Assembly: GCA_009885945.1 (NCBI GenBank)
Contig: VFJR01000006.1
Location: 1-48,824, forward strand
Origin: Anaerolineaceae bacterium
GTDB taxonomy: Bacteria; Chloroflexota; Anaerolineae; Anaerolineales; Villigracilaceae
DNA length: 48,824 bases
Direction of reading: 5' to 3'
Part shown: piece after piece, positions 10,785 to 42,823 of the stretch
How positions within the stretch are numbered: the stretch's first letter is position 1
How the letters are laid out: the number at the start of each line of letters is the position of its first letter
Made by a program: the position numbers and the translations under genes
The notes under the pieces: generated by a model
The model's database searches: none
Told to the model about the DNA's origin: nothing
Seen by the model: only the letters and a program-made list of their open reading frames with translations

Positions 10785-10850
10785 TATTATGTCATTGCGA
10801 GGGCGTTCTTACTCTATGCCCGAAGCAATCTGCTAAAGATTGCTCACTTT
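10785..10850. repeat. REP-like element (GTCATTGCGAGG...GAAGCAATCT)
   Basis: The gap between the divergent-looking ends of the S9 peptidase and mnmA genes contains TGTCATTGCGAGGGCG, then CCCGAAGCAATCTGC and AGATTGCTCAC. Its parts are shared with the elements at 1-175 and 41663-41830 (TGCGAG, CGAAGCAATC). It lies between the mnmA stop and the S9 peptidase start and has no coding capacity. Confidence 0.6.
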
Positions 10851-10856
10851 AAAATC

Positions 10857-11918
10857 TTATTGAATAATTCCACCGCCGAGCACTTCCTCATCTACATAAA
10901 ATACCGCCGCCTGACCCGCCGTTACATCTCGAACAGGCGCCTCAAACTTAACCGTAGCCTGATTCGCCTCCAGCGGCGTTACCTCAGCCCAAGCCAACTT
11001 CGCAGAATAACGAATCTTAACTTCAGCGCGAAACGGCTCGTTTGGGATATTACCACTTAACCAATTTACATCTCTGGCAAGTAATTCTGTAGAACCAAGT
11101 TCATCTTCAGTACCAACTACTAACGCATTACTTCCAGCTTGCTTGGTCAATACAAACAAAGGCACCGCCGAGGGAACCCCCAACCCTTTACGTTGACCAA
11201 TTGTATAGTTTGCCAAACCATTATGTTGCCCCACCACCTTACCATCGCGCGTTACGATCTGGCCTGGCTTGAGCATTTCAATTGCATTACGTTGTAAAAA
11301 ATTGCGGTAATCATCCCCCGCCAAAAAACACAGATCCTGGCTATCTTTGCGGGAGGCAGTTGGCAGACCAAATCTCTCCGCAATTTGGCGAATCTCCGTT
11401 TTAGGATAATCTCCCACCGGAAAAAGCGCATGTCTCAGCTTCGCCTGATTCAAGACATGCAAAACATAAGATTGATCCTTGCCCTCATCCACTGCCCGAA
11501 ACAAACGCGTCTTTCGGCTTTCATCTTTTATCTGCTTCGCATAATGCCCCGTCGCCATAAACTCCGCGCCCAAAGCCAAGGCATGGTTAAGCAAAAACTC
11601 CCAACGAATCTTTTTATTACAGATCAAACATGGATTTGGCGTCCCACCTTGAGCATATCCCTCCAGGAAATATTCCACCACCGTTTCTCGAAACACATCT
11701 TTCGCATCCACCACATAAAACGGCACATCCAGAATATTGGCTACACGCCGTGCCTGAGCCATCGAATCTGGCGTACAGCAGCGATTTGTATCTTCCTTGC
11801 CAGGCTCTGACCACAGGCGCAGCATCATACCCGTCACGTCATGACCTTGCTCCTTGAGCAAAGCCGCCGCAACAGAAGAATCCACCCCACCAGACATGGC
11901 AACCACTACTTTTGACAT
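10857..11918 (-). CDS. mnmA: tRNA-specific 2-thiouridylase MnmA
   Basis: MnmA adenylates and thiolates U34 of the Lys, Glu and Gln tRNAs, taking sulfur from a cysteine-desulfurase relay. The PP-loop ATPase motif SGGVDSSVAAALL is at residues 9-21. The two catalytic cysteines are Cys97 (GGTPNPCLIC) and Cys197 (DSQDLCFL). GQRKGLGV and the C-terminal beta-barrel are also present, and the length (353) is normal. The cysteine desulfurase gene lies upstream on the same strand, separated only by the GxxExxY element. The tRNA-Gln gene at 21869 encodes a possible substrate class. Confidence 0.97.
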   Translation of the reverse strand: MSKVVVAMSGGVDSSVAAALLKEQGHDVTGMMLRLWSEPGKEDTNRCCTPDSMAQARRVANILDVPFYVVDAKDVFRETVVEYFLEGYAQGGTPNPCLICNKKIRWEFLLNHALALGAEFMATGHYAKQIKDESRKTRLFRAVDEGKDQSYVLHVLNQAKLRHALFPVGDYPKTEIRQIAERFGLPTASRKDSQDLCFLAGDDYRNFLQRNAIEMLKPGQIVTRDGKVVGQHNGLANYTIGQRKGLGVPSAVPLFVLTKQAGSNALVVGTEDELGSTELLARDVNWLSGNIPNEPFRAEVKIRYSAKLAWAEVTPLEANQATVKFEAPVRDVTAGQAAVFYVDEEVLGGGIIQ

Positions 11919-11924
11919 TAATTA

Positions 11925-12409
11925 TTTAACCAGAGATGAACGGAGATGAACATAGATATTAAAACCAACTACTTATTTTTCTTCCAGTTTGGGGATGGGT
12001 ACAAACGTCTAATTTGTATTTTAGGTTTTCCAAAGTTGATAAGTAAACCTGTCGGAAAACCTGTTGCTCTTAAATAATTTAGGGCTTGAGCCAAATGTTC
12101 GTCTGTTAACTCTGAAACTGCCTTCAATTCTATCAATACTTTTCCTTCAACAAGCAAATCTGCGTAGAACTCACCTACAATCACACCGTCAAACAAAACT
12201 TTAATTGGATATTGTTGAATCACATCAATTTTATTTTTTCTCAATAAATGGAAGAATGAATTTTCATACACTTTTTCCACAAACCCAGAGCCGAGAATAT
12301 TACTAACCTCATAAGCAATGCCTATAACTCTCTTGGTTAACTCGTCTAACTCTCCATCACCCATAATAATCCTTCAAAAAATGTTTATCTTGTTTATCTC
12401 TGGTTTAAA
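11925..12409. mobile_element. Candidate mobile gene cassette: GxxExxY gene between inverted repeats
   Basis: A ~29-bp arm at 11925-11953 (core CCAGAGATGAAC then AGATGAACAT) is repeated in inverted orientation at 12381-12409 (reverse complement core CCAGAGATAAAC then AGATAAACAT). The arms differ at three G/A positions plus small indels. They enclose exactly one gene, the GxxExxY ORF. The right arm forms the last codons and stop of the cysteine desulfurase gene. The left arm lies just before the mnmA start. This is the layout expected of an insertion into an ancestral iscS-mnmA pair. No target duplication was confidently identified. Confidence 0.6.
11969..12364 (-). CDS. GxxExxY family protein (PD-(D/E)XK-nuclease-like fold)
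   Basis: The family is named after its motif, seen here as GSGFVEKVYENSF (Gly, Glu and Tyr correctly spaced, about residues 26-38). Further family blocks are YPIKVLFDGVIVGEFYADLLVEGKVLIELKAVSELTDEHLAQALNYLRATG and GLLINFGKPKIQIRR. The D-(x)n-E-x-K arrangement (ADLLVEG...IELKAV) resembles the PD-(D/E)XK nuclease core, but no activity is established for the family as far as I know. GAAGGA precedes the ATG. The gene sits alone between inverted repeats inside the iscS-mnmA cluster. The AT-rich sequence of the ORF differs from its neighbours, consistent with transfer. Confidence 0.9.
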   Translation of the reverse strand: MGDGELDELTKRVIGIAYEVSNILGSGFVEKVYENSFFHLLRKNKIDVIQQYPIKVLFDGVIVGEFYADLLVEGKVLIELKAVSELTDEHLAQALNYLRATGFPTGLLINFGKPKIQIRRLYPSPNWKKNK

Positions 12410-13548
12410 TTACGAGCTTTTTCAACCAATGAAGGCAATATTTTCAAAAACGAATCTACGTCAGCAACCGTATTATCTTTACCCAAAGTAACCCGCAATG
12501 AGCCTAAGCCCCACTCACGCGGCAAGCCCAAGGTGTTCATTACTTCGCTGGGCTCAGGGTTGCCCGTTTTGCACGCCGAGCCAGAAGAACAGGCAAAGCC
12601 AGCAGCATCCAATAGAGTCAATAATAAATTACCATCTACATCTTTAAATACAAAACTGGCATGGTGAGGCAAGCGCACGTTCATATCACCTGTCAATTGA
12701 GAATCGGGAATTGTTTCTAAAACAGCGCCGATGATTTTGTCGCGCAAAGGCTGAACATGTTTAATACGTTGCTCGCGTTCTTGAGCTGTCAACTTTAGCG
12801 ACTCTGCAAAGCCAACGATGTAGGCTACGTTTTGAGTACCTGCACGGAGATTATTCTCTTGTCCGCCGCCAGTGTTGTGAGAAATGAGCGGCGTTCCTTT
12901 ACGAACATATAATGCCCCAACCCCTTTGGGTCCATAAAATTTATGCGAACCCAGCGACATCATATCTACACTTAGAACTTGTACGTCTACGGGCAAATAC
13001 GCCGCCGCTTGAACTGCGTCAGTGTGAAAGAGGATTCCGTTGGCGCGGCAGATTTCAGCGAGGTCGCGAAGCGGGTTGATCGTCCCAATTTCATTATTGG
13101 CATACATCACCGAGACCAATCCAGTATTGTTGCAAATCGCCTTGCTCACAACTTCAGCAGTAACCATGCCCTGCGCGTTGACATCCAACCATTCAGGTAA
13201 AAAGCCGTAATGCTTACCAAGTTGTTCAATTGTTTTTGTAACAGCAGGATGTTCGGCGCGTGAAGCAAGAATCCATTGCGAACCGTTTTTTTCACGCATC
13301 CCTAACGCCCCGCCGCGAATGGCAAGGTTATCTGATTCTGAGCCGCAAGACGTGAAAATAATTTCAGCGGGTAAACAATTTAAAAAAGACGCAACCATCT
13401 CACGCGCAGATTCGATCGCAGCTTCGGCTTTCTGCCCATAACGATGAATGGATGATGGGTTGCCAAAAGATTCCGTGAGGTATGGCATCATCGCATCTAA
13501 GACACGGGGATCAATTGGAGTAGTAGCGGAGTAGTCGAAATAGATCAT
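12394..13548 (-). CDS. iscS: Cysteine desulfurase (IscS/NifS class)
   Basis: This PLP enzyme converts cysteine to alanine and an enzyme-bound persulfide, supplying sulfur for Fe-S clusters and tRNA thiolation. The signature YFDYSATTPIDPRVLDAM starts the protein. PLP-binding features are His100, the TDAVQ segment and Lys203 in SLGSHKFYGPKG. The mobile-loop catalytic Cys326 lies in ACSSGSACKTG. The next functional gene on the strand is mnmA, its expected sulfur acceptor. The last codons (LNQR-stop) are encoded by the inverted-repeat arm of the GxxExxY cassette, so the native C-terminus may have been replaced. The PLP enzyme core is complete. Confidence 0.95.
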   Translation of the reverse strand: MIYFDYSATTPIDPRVLDAMMPYLTESFGNPSSIHRYGQKAEAAIESAREMVASFLNCLPAEIIFTSCGSESDNLAIRGGALGMREKNGSQWILASRAEHPAVTKTIEQLGKHYGFLPEWLDVNAQGMVTAEVVSKAICNNTGLVSVMYANNEIGTINPLRDLAEICRANGILFHTDAVQAAAYLPVDVQVLSVDMMSLGSHKFYGPKGVGALYVRKGTPLISHNTGGGQENNLRAGTQNVAYIVGFAESLKLTAQEREQRIKHVQPLRDKIIGAVLETIPDSQLTGDMNVRLPHHASFVFKDVDGNLLLTLLDAAGFACSSGSACKTGNPEPSEVMNTLGLPREWGLGSLRVTLGKDNTVADVDSFLKILPSLVEKARNLNQR

Positions 13549-41662: not shown

Positions 41663-41830
41663 TAACTAACTGACCTTACGCACTTTTTACTAACAATCAT
41701 GTCTTTGCGAGCCGCGCCCTTGGTTTTAGCGGCGAAGCAATCCCCGACATGGTAAGAGCAGATTGCTTCGGACGAAGAACAAGAGCGTCCTCGCAAAGAC
41801 ATAGCATTTTTGCGTAAGGTCAATAACTAA
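41663..41830. repeat. MITE-like element with TGACCTTACGCA inverted ends
   Basis: TGACCTTACGCA (41671-41682) pairs with TGCGTAAGGTCA (ending 41822). Inside, ATGTCTTTGCGAG pairs with CTCGCAAAGACAT. AATAACTA occurs on both sides (41661-41668 and 41822-41829), suggesting a target duplication. It separates sucD from the next gene and contains no ORF of note. Confidence 0.72.
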
Positions 41831-41846: not shown

Positions 41847-42823
41847 ATGAAAAATATGTTCAATATCATCCCGCAGTTTCTTAAGAACCCCCAAGAATTC
41901 TTTGAAAGCGTCCAGCGCAATGAAGAACTTAAAATAAAAGGGTTCTCGCTTTTTATTTCAACAGTTGTATTTCTGATGATTTACGGGTTTATTACTGGCT
42001 TATCTCATAGTTTGTCACAGGGTTTATCAACAGCCGTAAAAATGCCAGTATTGTTTCTTCTTACTCTCGCCTTCACACTACCAGCCTTATACTTTTTTGC
42101 TCTGGCATTGTTGAACGTCCAGTTTTCAGTGGCGCAAGCGGGCGTAGTTGTCTTAAGTGGAATTGGCGTCGCGGCATTTTTGTTAATGGGTCTATCCCCA
42201 GTTACGTTATTTTTTGTTCTCACTTCGTCAAACTATTCATTCTTCCAATTAATCGCAGTTTTATTCGTTGCCGTCAGTGGTTTTACAGGTTTATATTATG
42301 TTCTTCGTGGATTTACTTGGGTGGATAAAAATCAAGAACTTACAAGCAACTCTGTAGGGAATACATTGCTCAGGGCGTGGGTTGTTTTATATGGTTTTGT
42401 TGGGGCGCAAATGACTTGGCGTCTTAGTCCATTGATTGGCGACCCAAATGAGCCTTTTTATTTATTACGACCATCGAGAGATAATTTTTTTGTTGATGTG
42501 ATAAATGCTTTTCAAAAGTCGTTTGGGGCAGGAAGAACCGATTTTAGCTTTGGCATTGGGGATGTGTTGGCTTTTGCAGTACTAGCAGGACTAATTGGTC
42601 TATTCTTAGGTTCAATTGGTCTATTGTTCGGTTGGGGCAGGAAGAACCGACTTTAGCTTTGGCATTGGGGATGTGTTGGCTTTTGCAGTATTAGCAGGAC
42701 TAATTGGTCTATTCTTAGGTTCAGTTCGGTTTAAGGAAAAAAACTAGTAGGGCAAGAACTTATCAGCCACTACAACAAGAAAAGGAAAAGGAAATTGTTG
42801 CGCCTGCAAAAAACAAAGCATAA
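41847..42823 (+). pseudogene. Polytopic membrane protein (Yip1/actin-binding-WH2-annotated type), C-terminus frameshifted by tandem duplication
   Basis: A membrane protein with about six hydrophobic segments. It has GAQMTWRLSPLIGDPNEPFYLLRPSRDNFF near 190-219, a block I have seen in proteins automatically labelled WH2-domain or Yip1-like. The ORF as it stands ends at 42656 with WGRKNRL. A 98-bp duplication (see 42523-42730) causes this. Joining the first copy's LLFG directly to the sequence after 42730 gives LRKKTSRARTYQPLQQEKEK and further residues, ending at TAA 42821-42823. The lost ~30-residue tail is basic then acidic. The truncated protein may still work. GGAG precedes the ATG. Confidence 0.72.
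42523..42730 (+). repeat. Imperfect tandem duplication
   Basis: The segment beginning TTGGGGCAGGAAGAACCGA at 42523 recurs at 42632 with two substitutions and an 11-base deletion (ATTGGTCTATT missing after the second TTCA). The net 98-base insertion, not divisible by three, shifts the frame of the membrane protein gene. Confidence 0.9.

Follow-up and report, generated by a model that had tools for sequence, protein, structure and literature searches.

A small gene of the GxxExxY family, set between iscS and mnmA in the genome of an Anaerolineaceae bacterium, is enclosed by a pair of inverted, iterated arms, and comparison among relatives gives good support to reading gene and arms as one unit whose types match. 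As far as flanking sequences can tell, arms around a GxxExxY gene are no local oddity, the pairing recurring in many phyla. We give even odds to the proposal that the gene and its arms make up a compact unit whose arms serve as cognate sites for the nuclease it encodes, which would make it a REPIN-RAYT-like pairing with an unrelated nuclease as its enzyme. The locus lies in the stretch of 48,824 nucleotides analysed here (the window), on the minus strand of which the gene order is iscS, GxxExxY gene, mnmA. Its features are the following.

10857-11918, minus strand: mnmA (tRNA_Me_trans), the downstream host gene
11925-11955, plus strand: left arm, TTTAACC followed by units of about 10 nt (AGAGATGAAC GGAGATGAAC ATAG..), 6 bases off the start of mnmA
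11969-12364, minus strand: GxxExxY gene (TIGR04256/PF13366), 131 aa, predicted PD-(D/E)XK nuclease fold with D69, E79 and K81 present
12378-12409, minus strand: right inverted arm, overlapping the end of iscS: TTTAAACCAGAGATAAACAAGATAAACA
12394-12408, minus strand: end of iscS supplied by the arm, last four codons and stop (L-N-Q-R-stop)
12394-13548, minus strand: iscS-like cysteine desulfurase (Aminotran_5), the upstream host gene

The initial annotation of this DNA had described inverted arms enclosing a single GxxExxY gene, and this is confirmed, although the arms are imperfect copies reaching about 28-29 nt by gapped comparison (TTTAACCAGAGATGAACGGAGATGAACAT versus TTAAACCAGAGATAAACAAGATAAACAT) and not 29 exact base pairs. 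A repeat search gives a pair of 17 nt (11925-11941 and 12392-12408) that is 88% complementary, and each arm consists of an outer TTTAACC-like word followed by units of about 10 nt. The local score of the pair, 15.5, was reached in none of 5000 first-order Markov resamples from the two 250-base flanks, the best of which scored 15.0; on its own, the arm pair is significant, by a margin that is not wide. Two further details of the annotation stand as well: only 6 bases separate the left arm from the mnmA start at 11918, and the right arm makes the end of iscS, the C-terminus of which reads N-L-N-Q-R-stop, with TTA AAC CAG AGA TAA at 12394-12408 falling within the arm. The nuclease-family gene accounts for the open reading frame of more than 80 aa found between the arms; no transposase gene lies there, and the list of open reading frames holds no second gene between them. 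Elsewhere in the window, a different 47-nt repeat (TGTCATTGCGAGG...GAAGCAATCT) is present twice in inverted orientation (10788-10834 and 41757-41803), one copy being just past the end of mnmA, and a similar sequence follows an arm at another locus (L030). There is also a direct repeat of 99 nt, 96% identical and spaced 109 bases, at 42519-42617 and 42628-42726.

The encoded protein is a clear member of the GxxExxY family by profile score and fold. It scores 133.3 bits against TIGR04256 (cut-off 35) and 128.7 bits against PF13366 (PDDEXK_3; cut-off 22), which are its only profile matches. The family is widespread around it, with matches in 130 of the 150 genomes searched in the same bacterial family and up to 14 in one of them. 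Residues G25, G27, E30, Y33, D69, E79, K81, L107, N110 and F111 are invariant in all 40 diverse proteins aligned, while E30, D69, E79, K81, Q93 and Y97 are kept in 18/18 proteins from the same site; the order D-E-K, with Q and Y downstream, is shared with nucleases of the Cas4/lambda-exonuclease type. Its structure model (mean pLDDT 93.2) matches 4ic1 (SSO0001, which we take to be a Cas4) with a Foldseek E of 1.5e-4, and with Z 9.9 and rmsd 3.8 over 105 residues, on a scale where VIA-align rows under Z 8 may reflect merely a common arrangement. Structure comparison also matches the model to 3syy LHK-Exo and 1avq lambda Exo. Sequence identity to 4ic1 is only 14-19%, a PDB sequence search with the window protein gave no match, and a PHROGs search gave weak hits only. 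The model predicts the fold of a minimal Cas4/lambda-exonuclease-like nuclease, so that the nuclease-like fold claimed at the outset is borne out, both by the structural matches to nucleases and by the conservation of the catalytic residues. Cas4 is defined by the four cysteines of its Fe-S site. The window protein contains no cysteine and therefore no Cas4-type Fe-S site, and no column of the alignment has a cysteine in half of its 40 rows.

Arms were sought around other GxxExxY genes as the best local match between 250-base flanks, a procedure by which a few may be found by chance. At a score of at least 13, inverted arms are present at 60 of 71 distinct loci from the same bacterial family and at 56 of 80 loci in named genomes outside it. 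The former set was drawn mostly from top-scoring hits and the latter is the best 80 of 538 confirmed matches among those listed, so these fractions are not population estimates. The same threshold is reached by 1/28 mnmA and 1/30 iscS control genes, and by 1/114 and 10/286 controls with windows shifted by 900 or 1200 bases (L049, L066, L071, L083, L100, L128 and L157 were dropped from this analysis for short flanks). Arms were found in 14 of 16 named phyla, several of them represented by a single locus and many by metagenome assemblies. In all, 151 elements were scored, 11 of 124 proteins and others having been left out (for stops, lengths under 90 aa, duplication or short flanks, and one for N), and the arm comparisons below keep the 116 of the 151 that score at least 13. 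Absence of arms around other GxxExxY genes had been named as a finding that would speak against the cassette; arms are present around them in the same genome and widely elsewhere.

In its own genome, the window gene has matches on five further contigs: two are intact, one has an internal stop and two are pieces at contig ends, which may be one split gene. All three uncut copies have inverted arms of other sequence in the same style (TTAACCGCCAAG; TTTAGCCACAGAGAGCACAGAG; CGAATTAGCGAAT), and the outer sides of the two contig-end pieces carry TTTAAACACAAAGGACACGAAG. Both pieces (L013, at the end of G000:C37, and L014, at the end of G000:C17) run into ACTTTAGTTTCCGCTAA, as if a repeated insertion sequence had split this gene and broken the assembly.

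Read by eye, the arms repeat a core of about 7 nt, with 1-3 nt of spacer between successive copies. The cores include CACAGAG, CGCCAAG, CACGAAT, CGCGAAT and CACAGAT, with AGGATTT-like cores in Bacteroidota. The core differs among GxxExxY lineages, and mostly also among the GxxExxY genes of one genome, and the left and right arms are of the same type. A clear unit period is seen in 40 of 116 elements, and in these left and right agree at 511/568 core positions and 430/581 spacer positions. Protein identity correlates with arm similarity (r=0.60, n=116 of 151; 0/2000 permutations), and part of this correlation is plain shared descent. A left-right test on trimmed arms (own 0.64, permuted 0.50, 0/10000) was discarded as biased, the arms having been trimmed to the best own pair. 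With untrimmed 110-base windows at 19 iscS-end loci, the own left-right score is 16.8 against 13.6 for permuted pairs (1/10000). The agreement goes no further than arm type, since arms that share a type but come from different genomes also score 16.8, and arms of different type 12.0. With own pairs no more alike than same-type arms elsewhere, the scores give no sign of pairwise conversion.

In the comparison of relatives proposed by the initial annotation, the same site was found to hold the gene with both arms, arms only, one arm, or neither. Among 104 stretches upstream of mnmA, iscS is present in 60 and absent from 44. Two genomes, G013 and G033, contributed two readings each, so that the 60 represent 58 genomes; a GxxExxY gene occupies this place in 13 of these genomes. 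By reading, a gene-less palindrome occupies the iscS-mnmA junction in three genomes (G041, G018 and G014) and a single arm in two (G034 and G051). A few gene-less junctions have another gene or a longer gap, and in several relatives that lack the cassette iscS ends in forms such as KARRLK-stop. In genus g8, the neighbour of iscS is not mnmA, and there too a GxxExxY gene follows iscS: among 52 junctions, 10 have the gene, 12 have arms without the gene (two of them recognised by a one-mismatch word) and 30 have neither. Some gene-less iscS junctions (L164, L180, L188, L253 and L379) contain another iterated repeat, with units of about 8 nt like TACTTGTTTACTTGTCTAC, as if this junction attracted iterated repeats in general. 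In one genome (G077:C1:1506530-1507577) mnmA was matched as two overlapping pieces, which suggests a frameshift or a sequencing error.

At this site, arm type follows the GxxExxY gene and not the host gene. Across 18 of 19 iscS-end loci (G144 was left out for its short IscS), arm similarity correlates with that of the GxxExxY protein (r=0.36; 1/5000 permutations) and not with that of IscS (r=0.06; 1518/5000), and the former relation is unchanged when IscS is allowed for (partial r=0.356; 2/5000). GxxExxY and IscS are themselves weakly correlated (r=0.30; 17/5000). Arm types, which were assigned after arms and tree had been seen, can be explained by 3 changes along the GxxExxY tree but need 9 along that of IscS, which is weakly supported (2 of 15 branches starred). 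GxxExxY data reject two IscS groupings, namely G086+G141+G103 (p 1.6e-5) and the window's own genome with G036 (p 0.020), and IscS data moderately reject two GxxExxY clades (p 0.011 and 0.031). The GxxExxY data are compatible with the seven g8 genes forming a single clade (p 0.073). The simplest reading of these trees is that the gene together with both its arms may have been replaced at an already occupied site. Of the minimal mobile cassette originally claimed, the part that stands is that gene and arms behave as one unit in relatives, with an arm type that follows the gene; a target duplication was not recognised by eye, the cassette-less sites being too diverged to tell.

Eleven of the same-site proteins group in a single clade, one row being unplaced, and the clade has members at other sites too. 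The 11 loci of this clade that are not beside iscS comprise 9 between ruvC and ruvA and 2 at other places. The same gene type thus has a second residence, which makes the link to sulfur metabolism incidental. A special significance of the split iscS-mnmA pair is therefore not supported, and a sulfur-relay meaning of the site is rejected on account of this second residence and of the g8 genes that follow iscS without mnmA.

Arms are also dispersed away from the gene. In the window's own genome, the arm word of the locus, TTAACCAGAGATRAAC, occurs exactly 24 times and TTAACCACAGATRAAC not at all, and 10 of 30 distinct arm copies have a partner. When dispersed arms were counted in 150 genomes with the pattern CCNNNGATRAACNNNGATRAA, 90 genomes had matches, the reversed control giving one match among those listed. 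Genomes with a gene closely related to the one in the window (E <= 1e-35, a limit set after the data had been seen) have more of them: after subtraction of the carriers' own two arms, the median is 8 in 31 carriers and 0 in 119 others (p 1.2e-8), and the 20 genomes without any GxxExxY match average 0.35. The excess was reached in 0/10000 permutations within genera, which leave kinship inside genera uncontrolled. By genus, the p values are 2.8e-5 in g8, 0.010 in g6, 0.05 in g4 and 0.077 in g23, and the excess is not significant in g17 (p 0.31). The carrier effect persists (0/5000) when the count of other GxxExxY genes is taken into account; each additional such gene adds slightly to the dispersed arms (10/5000). 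The enrichment in genomes with this gene type concerns arms of this general kind.

The fit between individual genomes and this rule is mixed. Nine non-carriers hold at least 9 dispersed copies. G048 has a GxxExxY gene with CACAGAT arms (L060) and G023 a gene fragment, and at iscS G121 has, by reading, a damaged gene and G131 the left arm alone; G011, G014, G074, G097 and G098 have 9-10 copies left unexplained. As read from the copies listed, the dispersed core class agrees with the resident gene in G000, G051, G013, G033 and G100, agrees for the first unit alone in G036 and G067 and for about half in G003 and G045, and disagrees in G028 and G049. The dispersed core of G028 fits none of the arms read in that genome, and that of G036 fits only the first unit of one of five.

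Many dispersed palindromes lie within larger units. In 14 palindrome stretches from G036 and G028, outer repeats like AGAGAGTGTTTTGAAA are found on both sides in 9, on one side in 4 and on neither in 1, and such a repeat is on one side in 1 of 6 stretches from other genomes. In the window's own genome, AGGACTTACGCAA-like repeats border 8 of 30 distinct copies, on one side or on both. Of the two outer repeats sought there, one-sided matches to the second are unusable, as random positions match it in 467/3000 cases (71/3000 for the first). Such outer repeats around dispersed palindromes mean that another transposase may spread them, and the idea that the dispersed palindromes are products of the resident gene is weakened by these repeats and by the core misfits. 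Two kinds of unit were noted: a MITE-like one of about 90 bp with AGGACTTACGCAA-like outer repeats and one arm word inside (L005, L006, L020, L026 and L038, all in the window's own genome), and one of about 130 bp with AGAGAGTGTTTTGAAA-like outer repeats and CACAGAT-type arms, present in two genera (L351-L353, L356-L359, L361 and L362). L032, again in the window's own genome, resembles the latter with CAGAGAT-type arms. For the gene-bearing element itself, a plain transposon was considered and rejected, there being no transposase between the arms and no recognised duplication. In a tblastn search with the window protein alone, matches came from 8 of 72,556 plasmid records and from none of the 50,697 phage records, a scarcity not typical of vigorous transposons.

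If the arms are the cognate sites of the nuclease, the Cas4/lambda-exonuclease-like enzyme would recognise the iterated cores and nick or resect DNA there, perhaps at extruded hairpins. Host repair would then copy the arm pair, with or without the gene, and the copied pairs would land at sites carrying or resembling arms, a spread that might parallel the movement of REPINs proposed for RAYTs. Junctions of housekeeping genes, such as the end of iscS and ruvC-ruvA, would be long-lived residences. In our judgement, there is about as much for as against the nuclease acting on the arms and spreading them. The broader proposal of a transposase-free, selfish or semi-domesticated element, in which a minimal Cas4-like nuclease with a 7-nt-core specificity that diversifies from copy to copy propagates matching palindromes in a dozen or more phyla, independently of REPIN-RAYT, is more tentative and falls somewhat short of an even chance.

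The gene-less palindromes, the presence of arms inside units with two different outer repeats, the poor core fit in G028 and G036 and the slight contribution of other GxxExxY genes to dispersed arms would all suit a different scenario. The arms would be independent palindromic repeats in MITE-like units spread by ordinary transposases and the nuclease gene a passenger, acting, if at all, as a host repair or repeat-trimming enzyme. We regard this as unlikely, because it gives no reason for a passenger to be found between arms at most of the loci sampled, in many phyla and with a lineage-specific core, nor for dispersed arms to track carriage within genera taken together. The tracking of carriage by dispersed copies, and of the protein rather than the host gene by arm type, also makes improbable a role of the arms in RNA, whereby operon-internal hairpins or long-range pairing would control the gene and its neighbours and selection for pairing would keep the arms alike. 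Such a role could be suspected from the location of arms at stop and start codons of housekeeping genes and from two gene-less palindromes that fold strongly (-31.3 kcal/mol, z -10.0, and -31.2, z -8.9). However, every palindrome will fold well as RNA and little can be concluded from the fold, and the three Rfam hits are all under the gathering scores of their families. It is improbable too, finally, that the protein is a defence or toxin-like nuclease regulating itself by binding the iterated arms as operators: although its fold is near Cas4 and restriction enzymes and iterated sites would resemble operator arrays, the best PADLOC hits are weak (E 0.0013 to 0.04, four proteins scanned), no second gene is seen between the window arms, and an operator role would give dispersed arms no reason to follow carriage.

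Should the arms indeed be cognate sites, each genome would offer natural protein-site pairs with different cores, a specificity that could be read from sequence. Such a system would explain part of the iterated palindromes seen between genes and would imply that an unrelated enzyme can sustain REPIN-like populations of repeats. In the portions of text returned by a literature search, the GxxExxY family is named in passing with no description of flanking arms; the search found no role for GxxExxY genes, and a link between gene and arms was not found in the open-access journal papers searched. The recurrence of the pairing in many phyla and the excess of scattered arms in carriers suggest a gene-plus-repeat system so far undescribed.

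Among known systems, the nucleases of the Cas4/lambda-exonuclease group are the closest solved folds to the GxxExxY model (4ic1, 3syy and 1avq), although at 131 aa and without cysteine the protein differs from Cas4. Insertion sequences and MITEs are similar in having a single gene between terminal inverted repeats and short gene-less counterparts, but the GxxExxY unit has no transposase gene, no target duplication was seen, and its arm sequence varies among copies in one genome. Replacement at one site would be compatible with the behaviour of a homing endonuclease, which cleaves the insert-less allele and spreads by repair. In REPIN-RAYT systems, according to the passages of the published account drawn on here, distinctive enzyme genes, one per repeat type, have their own repeat alongside, inverted repeat pairs are dispersed between genes, and enzyme and repeat are thought to co-evolve (PLoS Genet 2011, PMC3116915). 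Here too an enzyme gene lies beside its repeat, and the repeats are dispersed also as inverted pairs. However, RAYTs are IS200-like tyrosine (Y1, HUH) transposases whereas GxxExxY proteins are PD-(D/E)XK nucleases, and the arms of the latter are iterated short cores with spacers, with a mixed fit between repeat and enzyme. REPIN-RAYT is the nearest known logic, and the GxxExxY unit is not a member of it, both the enzyme family and the structure of the arms being different.
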